Origin: Akkermansia muciniphila
GTDB taxonomy: Bacteria > Verrucomicrobiota > Verrucomicrobiia > Limisphaerales > UBA9464
Length of the DNA: 35,898 nucleotides
Assembly: GCA_945898055.1 (NCBI GenBank)
Contig: CAMDGV010000043.1
Location: 1 to 35,898, forward strand
Reading direction: 5' to 3'
Part shown: in pieces, positions 1,441 through 19,304 of the stretch
How positions within the stretch are numbered: the first letter of the stretch is position 1
Layout: every line of letters begins with the position of its first letter
Notes under the pieces: model-generated
Databases searched by the model: none
What the model was told of the DNA's origin: nothing
Seen by the model: only the letters and a program-made list of their open reading frames with translations
Made by a program: the position numbers and the translations under genes

Positions 1441-2232
1441 TTAATCACCCAGACACACGGTCTCGCAGGGTGTATCTTGCGAGGTATTTCGAACGCGGAT
1501 ATGAGTTATTCCCGCCTCGGTCAAGGCCGCTTCCACGGTCCTACGGGCTAATTCCGGTGAGTTACAACCCTGACTCAGGTGACCAAGAAAGATTTGCCTC
1601 AACAACGGCCATGCAACCTCGACAGCCACACCAGCCGCCGCAGTATTGGAAAGATGCCCATGCCGACTTCGAATCCGCTGCTTGATCGAAGGCGGCCGAT
1701 CGGTGTCCTGTTGCAGCATCTGCTCGTCGTAGTTGGATTCTAATACTAATAAATTTGCCTCCCTCATTCGCTCCACAACCAAGCGAGTGGAATGTCCAAG
1801 ATCAGTCAAAAACCCGATAGTCCCGGCCGTTGTTCGAAGGAGAAAGCCCACCGGATCCATGGCATCGTGGGGCACATTGAACGACTTCACCTCGACCTCG
1901 CCGACTTGAAAAGTAGAGCCTGTCTCAAATAAACTGAATTCAAGGCGCGCTGTCGGAAATTTCACCTGAATGGCCTCGACGGTCAGTCGGTTCGCGTAGA
2001 TTCGGGTACCGGTTTGAGAACAAAGCGTCCCTAAACCTCCAATATGGTCCATATGCTCATGGGTCACCAACACGCCTGTAAGCCCTTCGGGGGCTCTTCC
2101 CAAAGTAGCCAATCGACTACGAATCTGTTTAGCACTAAAGCCGGCGTCGATTAACAACCGAGTCTCGCCGGCTTCCAAATAGGCACAGTTACCTTTGGAC
2201 CCACTTCCTAAAATCGTGAAACGAACAGCCAT
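1441..2232 (-). CDS. MBL-fold metallohydrolase, WalJ/YycJ type
   Basis: The 263-residue protein has the metallo-beta-lactamase fold. It starts with a beta strand leading into GSGSKGNC (residues 9-16), the WalJ/YycJ-family variant of the usual SSGSSGN. The metal-binding signature THEHMDHIGG is at 57-66 (H58, H60, D62, H63). NVPHDA in the middle and LESNYDEQML further on are also as expected for this family. In Firmicutes, WalJ/YycJ is a 5'-3' exonuclease associated with the WalRK system; in Verrucomicrobiota it is a stand-alone protein whose substrate is not established. It lies 170 bases downstream of rsmD on the same strand and converges with pduO. Family membership is firm; the biological role is inferred only. 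Confidence 0.85.
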   Translation of the reverse strand: MAVRFTILGSGSKGNCAYLEAGETRLLIDAGFSAKQIRSRLATLGRAPEGLTGVLVTHEHMDHIGGLGTLCSQTGTRIYANRLTVEAIQVKFPTARLEFSLFETGSTFQVGEVEVKSFNVPHDAMDPVGFLLRTTAGTIGFLTDLGHSTRLVVERMREANLLVLESNYDEQMLQQDTDRPPSIKQRIRSRHGHLSNTAAAGVAVEVAWPLLRQIFLGHLSQGCNSPELARRTVEAALTEAGITHIRVRNTSQDTPCETVCLGD

Positions 2233-2402
2233 CCATCAAAACTAAAGTACTCGTTCCTAACTCACAACCTGCATTAGACGAAACCGAGTCATTTTCAAAA
2301 TCAGAAAGTGCGACTCGGATCAATCGGATCACATCTCCTCCAAAGCGGGCTCAGCCAAGACCCAAATCCGAAAAAAGCCGCCGGATCGAAACCCACTTGA
2401 GT

Positions 2403-2981
2403 TCACGAGGGGGAGATAAGAAAACGCATTACGGTATCGCCATGCTTCAACTCCTTACGCTCCTTCCAAAAAGCGGGTATCTCTAAAGTATCCCTCTTGG
2501 TATGGCCCACAATAAAAAGCCCGCCCGGAGCTAGCAATTGAGGGAGTGCCTCATCATCGAGGAGCTTTTGGGCTAATGACACCGAGCGTCGCCCGACATT
2601 TTTCTCACCGTAAGGTGGATCTGCAATGATAAGATCAAAGAAACGTCCGGCCGCTTTCAACTGAGGAAAAGAGGTGAAAACGTCCTGAACACGCAAAAGA
2701 ACGCAAGCGGTCGGAAGACCTGTCGAAGCTAAGTTCTGCCGATAAAATCTGGAATGCTTTTCGGACAGCTCTACGCTGACCATTTCCCTCGCGCCTCGAC
2801 TCAAGCATTCCAAGCCTAATGCCCCGCTTCCGGCAAAAAGATCGAGCACCCGCGCTCCATCGAGGAACGTTCCCAGGCTGTTAAATACCGCCAGCTTCAC
2901 CTTGTCCGGTGTCGGGCGAACTCCAAGGCCCTCCGGAACTTTGAGCAGCCGGCCGGCTGCAAGACCACCAATGATTCTCAA
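2403..2981 (-). CDS. rsmD: 16S rRNA (guanine(966)-N(2))-methyltransferase RsmD
   Basis: The 192-residue protein begins MRIIGGLAAGR, the RsmD N-terminus. It continues with RPTPDKVKLAVFN (residues 22-34), which matches the family's RPT...R/K...FN/NxL signature. The S-adenosylmethionine site VLDLFAGSGALGLE spans residues 45-58, and the catalytic DPPYG is at 121-125, the N6/N2-methyltransferase IV motif (D/N-PP-Y/F). RsmD methylates G966 of 16S rRNA in the assembled 30S subunit. Length is normal. The start codon is ATG. The region upstream (2982-3136) holds no gene, and the WalJ-type gene follows downstream in the same direction. Confidence 0.93.
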   Translation of the reverse strand: MRIIGGLAAGRLLKVPEGLGVRPTPDKVKLAVFNSLGTFLDGARVLDLFAGSGALGLECLSRGAREMVSVELSEKHSRFYRQNLASTGLPTACVLLRVQDVFTSFPQLKAAGRFFDLIIADPPYGEKNVGRRSVSLAQKLLDDEALPQLLAPGGLFIVGHTKRDTLEIPAFWKERKELKHGDTVMRFLISPS

Positions 2982-8824: not shown

Positions 8825-8926
8825 TTTCAGCCGCAATCGATCGCTGCAGGTTCGTGCTTAGATTACTCGCTCTTTGAAGCGGGCTTGAATCGACATCCCT
8901 CCCCCACTGAGTTAACAAGACCGTGT

Positions 8927-10240
8927 ATGCGCGAATCCAAGGCCACCTTTATAAAGCAAAGTGCTTGGATGGTAGCGGCCAGTCTGGCGGGCGGAGTCGG
9001 GATGATGCTCGTCCATGTGGTGGTAGGCCGTAAGCCTGAAATTTACGCCCAATTTAAATCTCTCCTGAGTATTTTTTACATAGTTGGGGCGGCTCAAGGC
9101 GGGTTGTGGATTCTTTTTGCCCGCCAAGCGGCTTCCGCTCTGACGCCGGAAAATCAGTCACAGGTGATCGCAGCAACTTGGCGGACCTCTTTGTGGATTG
9201 TTGGCGTCATGTTTTTTGCCGGCCTCGGACTAATCGGGGTAGGCTCAAATTTAGCCAATCAACTAAAGCTACCCTCCACTGCCGCGTTATGGGCGACTTG
9301 GGGACTGATTCTCGCGACCCTTTTCGCTTCTCTCCTTCGCGGATTGTTACAAGGCTGCCAAAATTTCACCGGGCTTGGTCTGCTATCCATGGTTGATGGA
9401 TTCGGACGATTAGCAGCGGTGATGATCTGCGTTCTCTGGTTGGGTGGGGGCGCTGCAAGCGCCATCAGCGGTGCTCTGATCGGAAATATAGCCGCCATTT
9501 TCATCGGCCTTTGGACCCTGCGAAAGTGGCTCTTCCAAACCTTCACCCCCCCCGTCTTGGGTGCTGTGCCAAAGGGTTTCTATTCTCTGTTTTTTTCAAT
9601 GATAGCCCTTCAGGTGCTCGGACAATTCGACACTATTTTTCTCCAGTTAGTGATACCCTCTAGTTGGGTTGCCGAATCAGGCGCACGGTATTCGACTGGC
9701 TCCCAAATCGGCTTTGCCCTGACCCAATTCACGGTGCCGGTGGCATTAGTCATGTTCCCAAAAGTCGTCCGTGGCGTGGCAAAAAAACAAGTCACTAATG
9801 CCCTCCAAATGACCTTGGTCAGCACCCTCGGACTAGGGATTCTTGCCGCACTGGCTTGTACAGTGGTGCCTTGGTTACCTGTCCAAATTCTGTTTAGCAA
9901 AATCCCAACCGAAATCTCCGCTCCACTCGTTCCGTGGTTTGCTTGGTCAATGCTTTTTTATACGCTCGCTAATGTCCTCCTAAGCGATCGACTGGCTCGG
10001 GCTGACTTTCGATTTATGCCTTGGATCGTGGCACTGGCCCTGGGTTACATCGCCACACTGCTTGCGCTCAAAGATTATCTGCTTTCTGGCACTCCCCAAG
10101 CAGCTTTCTTCCTCTTGGTCCGAATCCTCGGTGGAGCCAATTTTCTCCTGCTCGCCTTAGCAATTATTTTTAGCCTTCTGGGCAGAACTGATCCCAAAAC
10201 TCTAGCTCCCCCTTCAATCGTTCCACCGGGAGACCAATAA
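8927..10240 (+). CDS. Polytopic membrane protein, oligosaccharide flippase (MOP/Wzx-like)
   Basis: This is a very hydrophobic protein of 437 residues from the ATG at 8927; a TTG start at 8885 would add 14 residues with no clear signal. About 12 membrane segments are visible, beginning with ATFIKQSAWMVAASLAGG and the following helix. A soluble start, an early KQ...W/AxxSLxGG pattern and paired helices throughout are typical of the MOP superfamily (Wzx, polysaccharide_synt). The C-terminus (LLGRTDPKTLAPPSI) is cytoplasmic. Its 3' end overlaps the convergent maf gene by 71 bases. It may move undecaprenyl-linked glycans across the inner membrane together with the GT2 transferase (11625) and the PAP2-GT39 fusion, but there is no operon link. 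Confidence 0.7.
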   Translation: MRESKATFIKQSAWMVAASLAGGVGMMLVHVVVGRKPEIYAQFKSLLSIFYIVGAAQGGLWILFARQAASALTPENQSQVIAATWRTSLWIVGVMFFAGLGLIGVGSNLANQLKLPSTAALWATWGLILATLFASLLRGLLQGCQNFTGLGLLSMVDGFGRLAAVMICVLWLGGGAASAISGALIGNIAAIFIGLWTLRKWLFQTFTPPVLGAVPKGFYSLFFSMIALQVLGQFDTIFLQLVIPSSWVAESGARYSTGSQIGFALTQFTVPVALVMFPKVVRGVAKKQVTNALQMTLVSTLGLGILAALACTVVPWLPVQILFSKIPTEISAPLVPWFAWSMLFYTLANVLLSDRLARADFRFMPWIVALALGYIATLLALKDYLLSGTPQAAFFLLVRILGGANFLLLALAIIFSLLGRTDPKTLAPPSIVPPGDQ

Positions 10241-10760
10241 CATTACTCACCGATCCCTCCACCGATTCGATAAGTAATTCGCCGTGCTCTTGAATGGCAT
10301 AGCCACCCGCCTTGTCGAGGGTGTCGACTTTAGAAAGGTAATCATTAATCACTGTGTCATCGTACGAACGAAATCGAACCTGCGTCGTCTCAGAAAATAT
10401 CCGGATCCAACCTGAGGCCCGATGAATTAAGCACACCCCCGTCACCACTTGGTGAAGCTGACCAGAAAGTCGCAAGAGAAGCGATCTCGCCTCCAAATCG
10501 TCAACCGGCTTGGTCAGCGGTTCACCCTCGAGCCAGACGAGTGTATCTGCACCCACAACAAGAGCCCCCGGATGCAGAAGCGCAACAGAGGTGGCCTTTC
10601 GTTCGGCGTTCACCTCGCAGAGGTGCTGAATCCCGAACGAAGCATCCTGCGATTCAGGGACGTGGCTCGGAATGACTTCAAAAAAGGGTACCAGTTGACG
10701 AAGAAGTTCCACCCGACGAGGGGAAGCGGAGGCGAGAATAACCGGAGGTAAAGTTCGCAT
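10170..10760 (-). CDS. maf: Maf-family nucleoside triphosphate pyrophosphatase
   Basis: The 196-residue protein contains the Maf signature ILASASPRRVELL near the N-terminus (residues 8-20), which includes the conserved SxSPRR. The catalytic-region GADTLV follows further on, and the C-terminal part reads DKAGGYAIQEHGELLIESVEG, the typical YxIQ...G-x-x-x-I...GS-x-N-V-x-GLP ending. Maf proteins hydrolyse non-canonical or specific NTPs (dTTP/UTP or 7-methyl-GTP types) and are linked to septum formation in Bacillus. The subtype cannot be settled by eye. Length is normal. The gene overlaps the end of the flippase gene in a tail-to-tail arrangement. A decayed mutM gene lies directly upstream on the same strand. 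Confidence 0.92.
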   Translation of the reverse strand: MRTLPPVILASASPRRVELLRQLVPFFEVIPSHVPESQDASFGIQHLCEVNAERKATSVALLHPGALVVGADTLVWLEGEPLTKPVDDLEARSLLLRLSGQLHQVVTGVCLIHRASGWIRIFSETTQVRFRSYDDTVINDYLSKVDTLDKAGGYAIQEHGELLIESVEGSVSNVIGLPVERLKGELEFWDQFCPEG

Positions 10761-10934: not shown

Positions 10935-11534
10935 TCACCCCTGGCACGCTGGGCAGAAGAAAATCTGAAGTCCTAATTGGACTCTTTTCTGAATCAAAAT
11001 ACCACAAGACAAACAGGGAAGATCGGGGTCACGGTCGATCTTGAATTCTCGGGCGATTCGACAGGGTTCGCTTTTCCATTGGGGGAATAATAGAAAGGGA
11101 GTTCCACAGTTCAGTAGCCCTTAGATTTTGATCAAGAGCAGAGAGCAAAGTGGCACGAATAGCGGGGTATAAGCAGTCGACTTCATTCAATTGAAGGGAC
11201 TTCGCAGGTCGAACCAGTTAAATACGAGCAAGAAAAAGAAATTCTAACGCGTAAATATTTCCGCTTTTAACCACTCGAGACTGCTCCATCAGGAAAGTCC
11301 ATCAGGAAAGTCTTGATCGAGTGACATAAATTCGCCAAGCGGGTCCGGAGAACTTCCGTTTAATGCAGCATCGAGCGGTTCAGGGCCGAGTCTATCGAGT
11401 TCCGCGCTCAAGTTTCAAGCGGTCCGGTGACGGATCAGGCGAGATTTTAAATTGTCGATACTCACCAACTCCCGCCCTCCTACGATGGAAGCAAGACGTT
11501 GACGAAGAGCTTCGACCGCGGGAAGTTCGGGCAG
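10935..11534 (-). pseudogene. mutM: mutM (Fpg) pseudogene: 8-oxoguanine DNA glycosylase
   Basis: This stretch looks empty but can be read piecewise as formamidopyrimidine-DNA glycosylase. From 11534 it reads PELPAVEALRQRLASIVGG, the Fpg N-terminus with catalytic Pro-Glu, in the frame of a CTG where ATG is expected. After an internal deletion of about 100 codons come an in-frame TGA and then ELDRLGPEPLDAAL. A tandem 13-base duplication (11286-11311) shifts the frame. The next frame reads IKTFLMEQSRV, then GNIYALEFLFLARI, an in-frame TAA at 11220-11218, and LVRPAKSLQLNEVD, then YPAIRATLLSAL. A final frame change gives the zinc finger CLSCG...FFCPACQ with spacing C-X2-C-X16-C-X2-C, exactly that of Fpg, and a TGA at 10937-10935. 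Total length is 600 bases against about 810 for an intact gene. Order and strand of all blocks are preserved, so this is one decayed gene. Confidence 0.88.
11286..11311. repeat. Tandem 13-base duplication inside the mutM pseudogene
   Basis: The unit CCATCAGGAAAGT occurs twice without a gap (11286-11298 and 11299-11311). Thirteen is not a multiple of three, so the duplication alone shifts the mutM reading frame. Removing one copy rejoins the frame through the IKTFLMEQ block. It is a typical replication-slippage scar. Confidence 0.9.
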
Positions 11535-11624
11535 AGATTAACGGAGATCCACAAAGCACAAGGACTTTGCCTCCAGAACATTCGTTGCTGGCATCCGAAA
11601 GGGGTAACGGTCTAGTGTTTTGGA

Positions 11625-12359
11625 GTGGAGTTACAAATCGTTATTGTTGTTCCGGTCTACAACGAGGCTGGAAACATTGAACCGTTAATTCGGGAAGTGA
11701 ATAAGGCCTTTGCGGGTGAATGCCGAGCTTGGCAATTAGTTCTGGTCGACGACGCCTCCACCGATGGTACGTGGGAGGTGATCGATCGGCATCTGGGTTT
11801 AGACCTTCACCTAGCGGCCTTCCGGCATAGCCGCAACCGAGGGCAAAGTGCCGCAGTCTGGACAGGAATCACCCGAACTGCAGCGCCCTTGATCTGCACC
11901 TTGGATGGCGATCTTCAGAATGATCCAGCAGATTTACCCCATTTTCTTAAATTATTAGAAGAAGTAGATTTTGTTTGCGGACGCCGCACCCAAAGACAAG
12001 ACAGCAAACTACGCCGGCTTTCCTCTTGGATGGCCCGAAAAGTCCGTACTTGGAGCTTAGGATGGGATTTCGCCGACACCGGCTGCGCCTTGCGAGCCTT
12101 TAAAAGAACCAGTCTTGCCGGCGTGTTCTTGTTTAATGGAGTCCATCGATTCCTGCCCATTTTAGTCGCTGGAAATGGAAGCAAAGTCCGAGAGATTCCA
12201 GTTTCTCATCGCCCACGCACCTCCGGCGTCTCCAAGTACGGCGTTTGGAACAGGCTTGGACGCGGCCTTTTTGATCTAATCGGCATGGCTTGGTATCAAA
12301 AACGACGAATGGATCGAATTGACATAGAAACTCCTCTTAAAGTACAAAATATAAGCTAA
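11625..12359 (+). CDS. GT2 polyprenyl-phosphate sugar transferase (DPM1/ArnC-like)
   Basis: This is a 244-residue family 2 glycosyltransferase from a GTG start. The N-terminus (VIVVPVYNEAGNI), the nucleotide-binding VDDASTDGTW (41-50), NRGQSAAVWTGI (71-82) and the DxD motif LDGDLQNDP (93-101) are all typical of dolichyl-/undecaprenyl-phosphate mannose or glucose synthases such as DPM1 and ArnC. RPRTSGVSKYG near the C-terminus matches the family's R-x-x-G-x-SK-Y/F block. Unlike ArnC it has no C-terminal membrane pair, so it resembles the short DPM1 type and probably acts peripherally at the inner membrane. Its product could feed the GT39 half of the fusion at 17118-19304. That link is inferred. 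Confidence 0.82.
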   Translation: MELQIVIVVPVYNEAGNIEPLIREVNKAFAGECRAWQLVLVDDASTDGTWEVIDRHLGLDLHLAAFRHSRNRGQSAAVWTGITRTAAPLICTLDGDLQNDPADLPHFLKLLEEVDFVCGRRTQRQDSKLRRLSSWMARKVRTWSLGWDFADTGCALRAFKRTSLAGVFLFNGVHRFLPILVAGNGSKVREIPVSHRPRTSGVSKYGVWNRLGRGLFDLIGMAWYQKRRMDRIDIETPLKVQNIS

Positions 12360-14867: not shown

Positions 14868-15731
14868 CTAGAGTCGCTGAGTCGTTTTGCTCCACAACCA
14901 CTCGATGTCTTTATTATTTGCTTGGTTGCCCGGGCTAAAGCCAGTTCGTTTGACCGGAATAACCGTCCTCTTATCCATCCAGCGTTTAATTTCGGAGTGG
15001 CCGTCGGCAAAAGCAAAACCGCAGGCACCATTGTGGTAACTCGCAGGAAGATCGGGGAGGACTGCCTGAGCCAAGTTCGGCGCAGGCTTCATATCAGTGC
15101 AGAAGAAACCATCATTAATGCTGTCGGGATGCTCATCGACGAAGACCCACGTGTCGGCGGGTTGAACGAAGTCTGTGTCCTTGAGGAACATGCGCCACGG
15201 CGGGCTGTTGCCGAACCAAGTTGGCTTGCCATCATGCATTCCCACCCAAGAGTTAATTGAGTTACTGCGCAATCGCGCGCGCCCGTTGGCGCCCGTAGTC
15301 ATAAACGTGTCCGCTGGGCACTTGTAGATCTTCTGAGTCATACCGGTATATTTCCAGATAGATCCCTTCGCTAATGTATTGGTGACATCCCAATTATCTC
15401 GGTTGGCCGTACTCCAATCGAGGTTCCCGTAGGACCAAGCAGTACTGATCGGGTTATCAGAGTAAGCCGGGGGAATCTTTCCGTTCTGGTCATCGATGTA
15501 CAGCTTCCACGCCATCATCAATTGCTTGGTATTATTCAGACACATAATGCCACTCGCCTTAGCCTTGGCTTTGGCCAAAGATGGTAAAAGCATACCTGCC
15601 AAGATGGCGATGATGGCGATAACCACCAGTAATTCTATCAAAGTGAAACCGGTTCGTGTTCGCCTTAACTGCGGGAGGAAGGGACCAGAGGAACTGCGGA
15701 AAGAAAAGAGGGATTGTAGATTTAGATTCAT
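14868..15731 (-). CDS. Pseudopilin-like protein, prepilin N-terminus and H-X9-DG C-terminus
   Basis: The 287-residue protein carries a type IV prepilin leader ending RTRTG, cleaved before FTLIELLVVIAIIAILAG, with Glu at mature position 5 and a basic, long leader of about 28 residues. After the helix comes LPSLAKAKAKA, the segment typical of Verrucomicrobiota/Planctomycetota type II secretion-like pseudopilins (the DUF1559-like group). The C-terminus contains H-X9-DG (YHNGACGFAFADGHSEI). These proteins are processed by the prepilin peptidase PilD and are expanded in this phylum; whether they form a filament or are exported soluble factors is not known. No other secretion gene is nearby. The start is ATG, and a purine-rich 12-base tandem repeat lies about 100 bases upstream. 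Confidence 0.85.
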   Translation of the reverse strand: MNLNLQSLFSFRSSSGPFLPQLRRTRTGFTLIELLVVIAIIAILAGMLLPSLAKAKAKASGIMCLNNTKQLMMAWKLYIDDQNGKIPPAYSDNPISTAWSYGNLDWSTANRDNWDVTNTLAKGSIWKYTGMTQKIYKCPADTFMTTGANGRARLRSNSINSWVGMHDGKPTWFGNSPPWRMFLKDTDFVQPADTWVFVDEHPDSINDGFFCTDMKPAPNLAQAVLPDLPASYHNGACGFAFADGHSEIKRWMDKRTVIPVKRTGFSPGNQANNKDIEWLWSKTTQRL

Positions 15732-16234: not shown

Positions 16235-17092
16235 CTATTTTTCATTAAACCGCCGTCTTATGTAGTGAAAAAGGTATTGCTGCGCATAGCCAGAATAAGC
16301 CCCAAAATAGCTTCGGCTAAACAGTTCTAATTCCGCATCGGTTATTTTTTTAACTTCAGGAAAATACAAATCTTTAAGGGCGCGACGCACCCACACATCA
16401 ATCGGAAAGGCGTCCTGACGCCCATAAGCAAAAAGGAGAACACAATCCGCAATCTTCGGCCCCACGCCGTCGATCAACATCAATGCGTTACGGGCCGCTG
16501 GCGTGGGCAGCGCGTTAATCGCCACCAAATCCAATTGCCCTGTACAGATTCGACGGGCCGCATCCATAAGGTATGGTGCCCGAAACCCCATCTTGCATTC
16601 TCTTAGTACTGTTTCGCCGGCTTGCAAGAATTCGTAGGGGTCCGGAAATGCATATCTCAACTGCTGCCCCTCTGCTCCCATCATCTTCCGCCCTAAACGT
16701 GCGGCTAATGTTTGAACAATCTGACGAATCTGGACGATTTGCTTGGTCGAAGAACAAATGAAACTAGCCAAACATTCCCAAGGCTCCTGCCGAAGAATTC
16801 GTAATCCCCGACTGGAAGCTACCGCTGCTCTCATTGGAATATCCTGAGGGAATCCTGCTAAGATCGCCGAAAAATCTTCGTCGACAGAAAAGTAATCGCG
16901 CACCCATTGGCTCGCACCCGGATCTTTCACCAGTTGCACTTGCAATCCGCCCCTCACCGATTCGACGCGGAGCCAATGTCCGCTCACGATCCCTTCCCAA
17001 CCAAGCCCGACTCGTGTCCAACGAAAGGCTTGCCCACACTCTAGGGTCGATTCCGGATCATAGTCATCCACTGGAAAAAAAAGAGTGTGCAT
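16235..17092 (-). CDS. OGG1-like 8-oxoguanine DNA glycosylase/AP lyase (HhH-GPD)
   Basis: From the ATG at 17092 the protein has 285 residues. The open frame extends further back, but only into the end of the neighbouring gene. The N-terminal OGG1-type beta domain carries ECGQAFRW (18-25). FICSSTKQIVQI at 111-122 corresponds to the OGG1 N-x-N lesion-recognition helix, and GFRAPYL at 169-175 to GYRA-x-Y. The helix-hairpin-helix IDGVGPKIADC (207-217) has the Schiff-base Lys213, and PIDVWVRRAL (230-239) has the catalytic Asp232. It excises 8-oxoguanine and nicks the abasic site. Spacing to the PAP2-GT39 gene is 25 bases on the same strand. Its presence fits the loss of mutM elsewhere in the window. 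Confidence 0.88.
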   Translation of the reverse strand: MHTLFFPVDDYDPESTLECGQAFRWTRVGLGWEGIVSGHWLRVESVRGGLQVQLVKDPGASQWVRDYFSVDEDFSAILAGFPQDIPMRAAVASSRGLRILRQEPWECLASFICSSTKQIVQIRQIVQTLAARLGRKMMGAEGQQLRYAFPDPYEFLQAGETVLRECKMGFRAPYLMDAARRICTGQLDLVAINALPTPAARNALMLIDGVGPKIADCVLLFAYGRQDAFPIDVWVRRALKDLYFPEVKKITDAELELFSRSYFGAYSGYAQQYLFHYIRRRFNEK

Positions 17093-17117
17093 ACTGTCAA
17101 CCCCGTCTTGAAACTGA

Positions 17118-19304
17118 TCATCGCTGATTTCGTAAAATATGCATATGAAGTTGGTGAAACAGTCGACCTCGGTAAAAAATGTCTTTGCCGGCGATCGCTT
17201 CCGCACTCTCAAAGTCTCGACTCATTCTGGCTATTTCTTTCTCCGACGGTTCCCGACTCGTCAGATATAAAACGGTCAAACCCTTCCGATGGCTATATCG
17301 GTACTCGGGCCAGAACCACACTTGATTGATCGGACGCTCTGTCTCACGAACGGTCACCATCGGATCGGTCGTCACTCGGGATGCTGCCCCCGGTAAATAG
17401 AAATTGAGGATACCTGTCCATCCGTAATGGTCGGTCACGATCAACACCGGTCGCCCCTCAGTTTCCAATCGAACTCGATGCGCTTCAACCACCGCGGCAG
17501 CTTCCCGATATCCACGCACTCGACGGTGCAAATCCAGTCCCGGAGGAAGATAACGACCGGTCAACTTGCCGACCAGATTGGTATCAAACAAAACTAGGGC
17601 TATCGGTAAGCCAATAACAAATCCCCAGATTAAGAGTCGGCGACCCGCCTTTGCCCCTGCGCGATGACGCTCATCCCACCACAACAGGGCAAAAGCTCCG
17701 AGAGGTAAAATAGAGGTGGCGACCCAATTGGGTTGAACCCTCGAGTGTAAGGTGTAGGCAAAATAAATCAGAAACACGGGCAACCCCATCGATAGGCAAT
17801 ATACTTGAGCCATTCGACGGGATTCGTCTCCGATCAAGGGTAAACGGCGACGCATTAAAAACCCGATAATTGCCCAAACGATGGCCAAGAAAAACACCGG
17901 ATTCCACAATCCTATTTCGGCCCCCAAAAACTCAGCAATCAGCAGGGGACGAAAGGTCCATTGCTCACCGAGTCCACCTCGCTCTTTTAAATGGGTAAGG
18001 GTGATCCAACCGTTTTGTGCATTCCAGACGAACACCGGAATCACCGCCACCAAACTCATTCCCAAGGCCAACCAAGGGCCTTTCCGTCGCAACTGCCCTC
18101 GAGCACTCGGCCACACGACGAAAAATACCGCAAAGGAGAGAATCAGGAAGGGCGAGAAGTACTTACTCAAAAAGGCGCCGGCCGACGCCAATCCAACCGC
18201 CCCCCACCACAGGGTCGAGTCTTCTCGGATTGCCCTCCAACCAGACACCATCGCCACTGTCCAAAAGGTCACGGTCAGTGGATCAATGGTGATCAGAATG
18301 GAGCCCACCACCAAGAGCGGCACGACATTGGCTGCCGCCGCCATTAGAAATCCCAACCGCCACCCTGCCAAGCTGGCAACAAACCAAGACAGCACGAATG
18401 CGGTCACAGTGGAGAGCAAGGGCGATAGAAAGCGCACTCCCAACTCCGTATTCCCAAAGAGGCTGGTTCCAATCCATTGAGCGTAAGCGATCAATGGAGG
18501 CTTGCTGTAGTACGATAACGCTAGATGTTTCGACCAGAGCCACTGGTAGGCTTCATCCTCGCTTAACTCAATGACTCCGCCCGCCAAATAAACCCAACGG
18601 ATTACCGTGAGCATTCCGAGGGTGAAAAAGGTCAAACGTCGCCAATGGCTTTCCAATTCAGCACTCCGTTTCCCGGGCTCGCTCGGCATTTCCCTTATGC
18701 CTTCTGCTTCACACGAATTCGGCAACAAACTAGGAAAACGCCGCCACCACAACGGAAGCCAACCCCGCCCCAGCCAACCCCAAAAACCATTCAGCAATCG
18801 GGGTAATCCCCATCCGTACAAGGCTCCCCAGAGCCAACCCGCTAAGACATCCGATGGATAATGTACTCCGACGTACACCCGTGAGATCCCGACTCCTAGG
18901 GCCAATGGCCCCATCACTCGGAGACTGCGACGATAATACCCAAACGAAACGACGGCGGCGGCGGCCCAGATCGCCGCGTGACCACTCGGCATTGAGGCAT
19001 TTAACCCTTTCCCGGCCAGCATCCGTGTCTCTAAATGGGTAATAAACGGACGTGGACGCTCTATCGCCTTTTTCAAGCGACCAGTCCCGTATTCTCCCAG
19101 TGCCAAGGTGAGAACCAAAATTAAGACAAAACAACGACCACGCCGTCCCCCTTTCCACAAAAGCCCTCCCGCTACTAAGGCCAAAATAGGCCTAAAAAAG
19201 TCATTTCCGCTCAAAAAAGGCATCAAGAAATCCAAAAATGGGCTCACCCAACCCTCATTGACAAAACGGAAGAGGCGATAATCAAATGCAGTGATAGCAT
19301 CCAT
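17118..19304 (-). CDS. Fusion of PAP2 phosphatase and GT39 (ArnT/PMT-like) glycosyltransferase
   Basis: The start chosen is the ATG at 19304 (728 residues); a TTG at 19451 would add 49 residues without domain similarity. Residues 1 to about 175 form a PAP2 phosphatase with all three motifs: K78-X6-RP (KKAIERPRP), PSGHA at 106-110, and SRVYVGVHYPSD at 141-152. From about residue 210 a polytopic GT39/PMT-family domain follows. It carries the acidic periplasmic loop signature LSEDEAYQWLW near 250, KPPLIAYAQWIG after it, and about ten further membrane helices. PAP2 enzymes dephosphorylate undecaprenyl pyrophosphate or lipid phosphates, and GT39 enzymes use polyprenyl-phosphate sugars. The fusion could couple lipid-carrier recycling with sugar transfer. 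Both parts appear intact. Confidence 0.87.
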   Translation of the reverse strand: MDAITAFDYRLFRFVNEGWVSPFLDFLMPFLSGNDFFRPILALVAGGLLWKGGRRGRCFVLILVLTLALGEYGTGRLKKAIERPRPFITHLETRMLAGKGLNASMPSGHAAIWAAAAVVSFGYYRRSLRVMGPLALGVGISRVYVGVHYPSDVLAGWLWGALYGWGLPRLLNGFWGWLGRGWLPLWWRRFPSLLPNSCEAEGIREMPSEPGKRSAELESHWRRLTFFTLGMLTVIRWVYLAGGVIELSEDEAYQWLWSKHLALSYYSKPPLIAYAQWIGTSLFGNTELGVRFLSPLLSTVTAFVLSWFVASLAGWRLGFLMAAAANVVPLLVVGSILITIDPLTVTFWTVAMVSGWRAIREDSTLWWGAVGLASAGAFLSKYFSPFLILSFAVFFVVWPSARGQLRRKGPWLALGMSLVAVIPVFVWNAQNGWITLTHLKERGGLGEQWTFRPLLIAEFLGAEIGLWNPVFFLAIVWAIIGFLMRRRLPLIGDESRRMAQVYCLSMGLPVFLIYFAYTLHSRVQPNWVATSILPLGAFALLWWDERHRAGAKAGRRLLIWGFVIGLPIALVLFDTNLVGKLTGRYLPPGLDLHRRVRGYREAAAVVEAHRVRLETEGRPVLIVTDHYGWTGILNFYLPGAASRVTTDPMVTVRETERPINQVWFWPEYRYSHRKGLTVLYLTSREPSEKEIARMSRDFESAEAIAGKDIFYRGRLFHQLHMHILRNQR

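Follow-up and report, generated by a model that had tools for sequence, protein, structure and literature searches.

Decay of mutM in an Akkermansia muciniphila genome that carries a second, apparently foreign Fpg homolog

The decayed mutM gene and its locus

The window analysed here is the whole stretch of 35,898 nucleotides that forms positions 1-35,898 (forward strand) of contig CAMDGV010000043.1 in the Akkermansia muciniphila assembly GCA_945898055.1; the genome holding it is referred to as G000, and a sister genome, G008, served as DNA and protein reference. Positions 10935-11534 of the minus strand hold a dead mutM (fpg) gene, from its former start codon, now CTG, to its former TGA stop. 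It lies between two intact genes that a previous reading of the sequence had named correctly, a maf-like gene (10170-10760, minus strand; Pfam Maf, E 1.5e-50) and a family-2 glycosyltransferase (GT2) gene (11625-12359, plus strand; Pfam Glycos_transf_2, E 8.1e-26). In G008 the same place is occupied by an intact gene for a 278-aa MutM, and the comparison with relatives proposed by the sequence-only reading bore it out: in 17 of 18 same-genus relatives GT2, mutM and maf follow each other in a segment of about 3 kb of a single contig, while in the remaining one (G006) the contig breaks off at GT2 and mutM and a different contig carries maf, so that GT2 adjoins mutM in 18/18. The gene is full length in 16 of the 18, the exceptions being G006, where the contig end cuts it, and G017, which has a deletion of its own. 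The maf gene is convergent with a membrane-protein gene (8885-10240) and their 3' ends overlap by 71 bp (10170-10240), an overlap of equal length being present in G008.

Several analyses identify the remains. When the intact MutM of G008 was used as tblastn query, three pieces were recovered in order (E 2e-18, 9e-12, and 3e-11), in two frames and not in the three that had been anticipated. A profile of 15 MutM proteins of the genus, from which G008 was left out, was searched against all stop-to-stop frames of the window of at least 15 aa, and its top five frames all fell within 10938-11537 of the minus strand (E 1.3e-6, 2.8e-4, 3.6e-4, 1.7e-3, and 0.33), the best frame outside the mutM remains reaching only E 0.47. 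DNA alignment to G008 mutM gave the same result. The G008 copy has the three domains of MutM/Fpg (Pfam Fapy_DNA_glyco, H2TH, and zf-FPG_IleRS) and scores above the TIGR00577 cut-off; its direct counterpart in the window is left without a long open frame or a start codon, and 81 codons are missing from it.

The alignment also places the lesions. CTG stands at 11532-11534 where G008 reads ATG, stops occur in the old register at 11415-11417 (TGA) and 11218-11220 (TAA), and a 13-bp tandem duplication at 11287-11312 is a single copy in G008, all as the sequence-only reading had described. The large deletion that it reported is also there, at the junction 11407/11408 (alignment columns 221-463), but it removes 243 bp, that is 81 codons and not about 100. 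Three further small deletions (2, 1, and 1 bp), each of them frameshifting, and a third stop among the codons in the old register had been missed. The zinc finger keeps the exact C-X2-C-X16-C-X2-C spacing noted before, although the Arg-Ser-Thr found in the G008 finger has become Leu-Gln-Ile. According to the list of open reading frames, no minus-strand ORF of at least 100 aa exists within 10935-11534, in agreement with the earlier remark that no frame was long enough for annotation.

Divergence between the mutM remains and G008 is similar at the three codon positions (0.164, 0.178, and 0.226 at positions 1, 2, and 3; 195-197 sites each), with a dN/dS of 0.507, whereas four neighbouring genes show 0.13-0.28 and change mainly at third positions. 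Of 61 alignable sites that are invariant in the 15 genus MutMs, G008 keeps 52 and the wreck 40. As the value of 0.507 averages a constrained G008 branch and a near-neutral G000 branch, much of the G000 branch probably passed without selection on mutM.

As a pseudogene, the decayed mutM is ordinary. In G017 the gene (L049, G017:C276, about 2022-2667, minus strand) carries a clean 179-bp deletion with a frameshift, which removes roughly residues 167-220, so that the H2TH domain loses its later half; the DNA is otherwise 94% identical to G014 and 94-97% identical to G005. Unless it is an assembly error, this would be a second and younger inactivation of mutM in the genus. No OGG_N match was found in G017 by domain search, and the second type of Fpg described below is also absent there.

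A second Fpg gene and the OGG1-type glycosylase

The only other Fpg-domain gene found in G000 is intact and is located on contig C49 (1509-2306, minus strand). Its protein is 31% identical to the MutM of G008 and contains the N-terminal catalytic Pro-Glu as well as Fapy and H2TH domains. It scores 141.5 bits against NCBIfam TIGR00577, below the cut-off of 203.3, and for this reason we refer to it as Fpg-like type B and not as MutM. When Fpg proteins were sorted by identity, this protein and 50 others formed the type-B group (51 proteins) and 58 formed type A, the branch between both having an SH-aLRT of 100 in a quick tree. The 51 type-B proteins conserve the N-terminal Pro-Glu, a GK motif, HLGM, D-x-R-x-FG, and GNWMADE. 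Two records in the group (L170 and L172) carry the titles Paceibacterota and Akkermansia muciniphila but are placed by the quick tree among subdivision-6 Verrucomicrobia, so their titles or bins are probably wrong. A further genome shows two adjacent type-B pieces (G110:C3:18211-18421; residues 1-30 and 222-264), as if the middle had been lost.

The closest partner of the G000 protein is that of L152, with 93% identity and a pairing SH-aLRT of 99 (quick tree). An AF2 model of the L152 protein (pLDDT 95.5) has the Fpg/Nei fold and matches bacterial MutM/Fpg (Z 24.3-28.6), Arabidopsis FPG (27.2-27.9), and Escherichia coli Nei (24.1-24.5), while by sequence the best solved chains for type B are Thermus MutM and Arabidopsis FPG.

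Type B differs from the MutM of the order in the stretch between the H2TH Asn and the finger Arg, which contains the 8-oxoG recognition loop. This stretch has a median of 82 residues in type B (range 81-94; 48 of 51 proteins parsed) and 101 in type A (range 79-111; 54 of 58 parsed, the lone 79 being the second gene of G011); counted on alignments, Arabidopsis FPG1 has 81 residues here and Thermus MutM 92. It is thus the segment spanning the loop that is shorter than is usual in the MutM of the order; in the structure 1R2Y the loop corresponds to residues G218-G233, according to PMC3188539. Arabidopsis FPG1 (PDB 3twk and 3twm), which that source places in a plant and fungal group called PFNei, resembles type B in this length and in a finger region that aligns well, but the two share merely 24-26% identity. 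Furthermore, the plant and fungal finger is described there as zincless, whereas Cys 1, 3, and 4 of the finger are kept in 50, 42, and 39 of the 51 type-B proteins; at the second Cys position, 21 have Cys, 11 His, 10 Thr, 7 Asp, and 2 Ser. A second bacterial group, BaFpg2, with a specificity loop of 18 residues against 23 in ordinary bacterial Fpg, is described in the same source for a narrow set that includes Actinomycetes, and was compared with type B by this description only.

Arabidopsis FPG1 hardly excises 8-oxoG, and in PMC6728418 this is blamed on its very short alphaF-beta9/10 loop. Given this precedent and the short segment of type B, we predict that type B would act on Fapy and hydantoin lesions and on AP sites, and that 8-oxoG would be left to an OGG1-type enzyme. 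A candidate for the latter is encoded in the window by an intact gene (16235-17212, minus strand; Pfam OGG_N, 1.1e-16, and HhH-GPD, 8.3e-8), which is likely to be the 8-oxoG back-up of the cell. Its protein matches NCBIfam ogg with an E of 1e-46 but, with 159.5 bits, remains under the TIGR00588 cut-off of 397.85, which is why we call it OGG1-type. It shares the OGG_N and HhH-GPD domains with bacterial OGG1 (PDB 3f0z and 3i0w, of Clostridium acetobutylicum) and aligns with 3f0z across residues 45-320 (E 1.1e-47). Its best solved chain, however, is 4ejy, called a 3-methyladenine DNA glycosylase, with 8-oxoguanine-DNA-glycosylase chains at E 1e-47, and 8-oxoG is its predicted substrate. The catalytic Lys and Asp align with 4ejy. 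OGG_N is present in 54 of 59 genomes, G000 and G008 included, which rules out that OGG1 arrived newly and took the place of MutM. The seven type-B genomes that both the Fpg and the OGG_N surveys covered all have it.

Part of the evidence for a foreign origin of type B is its setting. The left 8.3 kb of C49 have a GC content of 0.589, slightly higher than in 20 other pieces of G000 (0.489-0.582). Copies of the first 48 bp of C49, 93-100% identical, are present in 10 of 18 genus relatives, and this sequence resembles a tRNA 3' end, although ARAGORN, which requires a whole tRNA gene, called none in C49 (L051). At C49:237-1310 there is a disrupted relative of an integrase frame (Pfam Phage_integrase) that is open beside tRNA-Thr in G011. 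The tRNA-like end together with the decayed integrase gives the place of type B the look of a scar left by a tRNA-linked integrative element. A stretch of 26-53 bp near C49:7150 (L051:7125-7177) recurs on seven other contigs of G000 and does not appear among the listed matches to the 18 relatives, with 15 candidates per genome being scored; it is possibly a species-specific dispersed repeat.

The type-B gene block is 88.8% identical in DNA between C49 and the L152 contig over 1122 bp, although L152 belongs to a more distant lineage. When the L152 genome was compared with 20 kb of the window, matches longer than 130 bp were only 67-69% identical; maf and mutM were covered by none of them, and one of 243 bp lay in GT2. 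On one side of the block the similarity fades inside a neighbouring gene for a DAO-type FAD oxidoreductase, which is complete in L152 and of which only an interrupted end is found on C49; on the other side the L152 contig (4.3 kb) ends. A relic of a neighbour gene of the L152 lineage thus adjoins type B on C49, and we read the block as a transferred fragment, the direction being towards G000. The dN/dS between both type-B genes is 0.124 (dS 0.294), which points to a gene under constraint. No DNA match to the left 8.3 kb of C49 was found in G008, but G008 is 86% complete and its contig ends 133 bp past the C49 match, so the absence of type B from G008 is weak evidence.

Replacement, drift, or artefact

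In xenologous gene displacement a native gene is lost once a foreign homolog has assumed its role. The native mutM was lost on the G000 branch after the split from G008, and we propose that something similar may have happened here: a foreign type-B Fpg would have arrived in the apparent tRNA-linked element, now decayed, and together with the resident OGG1-type glycosylase it would have made the native MutM dispensable, so that the chromosomal mutM decayed. Under this proposal there would be a division of labour, with type B taking care of Fapy and hydantoin lesions and OGG1 of 8-oxoG. The case differs from a typical displacement in that remains of the native gene can still be recognised; we infer that the acquisition preceded the loss and caused it, and we give displacement a probability of about 0.6. 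No paper listed in our literature searches describes, in its title or the displayed opening of its abstract, this loss of mutM with a foreign Fpg as stand-in.

The distribution of both types speaks for this reading. Among the 167 genomes of the order that are at least 90% complete, G000 included, type B occurs in six and none of the six has another Fpg match, whereas the other 161, without type B, have an Fpg match in 117 cases (p 5.8e-4, with kinship ignored). In a search for Fpg-domain genes in 47 type-B genomes, 43 had a single one and four had two, the second copies being untyped, and these four count against displacement; the 48th genome of the set, G110, gives only the type-B pieces, and completeness figures are missing for 45. 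Against displacement, with a short 8-oxoG loop type B would replace MutM poorly precisely on 8-oxoG. Furthermore, loss needs no replacement, as any Fpg match is lacking in 13 of 58 relatives and the mutM of G017 is broken although type B is absent there, and it is because of these cases that the estimate for displacement stands at the value given and that drift keeps a substantial share.

A serious rival is therefore plain redundancy, according to which OGG1, together with MutY, covers 8-oxoG and mutM simply drifted away, type B being unrelated or later. We consider this possible though the less probable account. The wide occurrence of OGG_N fits it, and none of the five genomes that lack OGG_N is among the 13 relatives without an Fpg match; MutY is also intact in both G000 and G008, over its family cut-off and with no stops. 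However, the mutual exclusion between type B and ordinary MutM is not predicted by plain drift. The separate deletion in G017 can be cited for loss without type B, but the same genome has no OGG_N match, so redundancy with OGG1 fails to explain it.

It is improbable that the picture results from the assembly or binning, with the lesions being errors or the left part of C49 being chimeric or a contaminant. The genome is a 136-contig assembly, and the left 8.3 kb of C49 combine their high GC with the lack of a match in G008; a chimeric join near C49:8437-8465 is possible. Errors, on the other hand, would not leave the three codon positions almost equally diverged along about 195 codons, and C49 combines a backbone common to G008 with the stretch that recurs on seven other contigs. 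In fact, C49:8465-16084 is 89-92% identical to G008, as compared with 88-93% for the window, and this rules out C49 as pure contamination. The similarity to the 4.3-kb contig of L152 is also limited to 1.1 kb, unlike what a contaminant of that lineage would show. As for a remnant that still functions, for instance as a shortened protein that binds DNA or as a regulatory RNA, nothing was found in its favour, and the lost start, the scattered frames with none of at least 100 aa on the minus strand, the near-neutral codon pattern and the altered Arg-Ser-Thr of the finger make it highly implausible.

The mutation spectrum of G000 and G008

MutM is a classic antimutator, and in its absence G:C-to-T:A changes are expected to increase. 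According to PMC9927291, loss of mutM leads to AT bias under oxidative stress. We have compared G000 and G008 at 11,690 fourfold sites in 60 common genes, and the differences of the 8-oxoG class were strongly skewed in the direction opposite to this expectation: 160 had A or T in G000 and 502 had A or T in G008 (p 5.5e-42). The skew went this way in 55 of the 60 genes, with one opposite and four ties, whereas transitions at the same sites were nearly balanced (511:562, p 0.13). The counts for the 31 genes that lie neither in the window nor on C49 agreed, at 96:283 for the 8-oxoG class and 274:320 for transitions, as did those for noncoding DNA of the window, at 22:53, the wreck itself showing just 15:21. 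In nine control pairs of the genus the ratios ranged from 0.60 to 1.40, as compared with 3.13 for G000 and G008; two of them came near p 0.05 (0.067 and 0.05), and the pair at 0.05 and a third pair were skewed for transitions too. These controls are weaker than the test itself, as they share genomes, cover only the 12-kb mutM loci and have a higher fourfold GC (0.70-0.85).

Given the 160:502 skew with near-balanced transitions, the mutM-less G000 is no 8-oxoG mutator relative to G008, and it shows no mutator signature in this comparison. Such a skew could come from more G:C-to-T:A in G008 or from a mutT-like excess of A:T-to-C:G in G000. When 16 genes were polarised with outgroups, G:C-to-T:A changes (G000 vs G008) numbered 13 vs 18 at positions 1 and 2 and 7 vs 16 at position 3, and A:T-to-C:G changes 6 vs 4 and 2 vs 2. 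With stricter outgroups (13 genes) the corresponding figures were 10 vs 15 and 5 vs 16 for G:C-to-T:A, and 3 vs 4 and 4 vs 2 for A:T-to-C:G; a smaller polarised set gave 4 vs 8 and 0 vs 3. These counts, which are small and carry no formal test, point to more G:C-to-T:A in G008, and the mutT-like effect in G000 finds no support in them. Loss of MutY as the cause of the difference was ruled out by the intact genes in both sequences.

One explanation would be that the turnover of repair enzymes, with a plant-like Fpg of shortened 8-oxoG loop in the place of MutM and the repair of 8-oxoG handed to a bacterial OGG1, has reshaped the spectrum, so that G000, far from turning into a G:C-to-T:A mutator, now makes fewer G:C-to-T:A changes than the MutM-bearing G008. 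We regard this as unlikely; if true, it would mean that the swapping of repair enzymes, besides their loss, drives base composition in these bacteria. It is the apparently foreign, plant-like stand-in and the skewed spectrum, and not the pseudogene itself, that lift the interest of the case to a moderate level. One defined pair offers a natural mutM knock-out alongside a sister in which the gene is intact, a likely foreign replacement and a spectrum that can be measured. As these two genomes differ strongly only in the 8-oxoG class, and in an unexpected direction, they make the relation between repair-gene turnover and base composition testable.

As a separate observation on the window, the start of a prepilin-like gene (15490-15661) resembles many other places in the G008 and L152 genomes, and these many matches indicate that prepilin-like genes form a large family.
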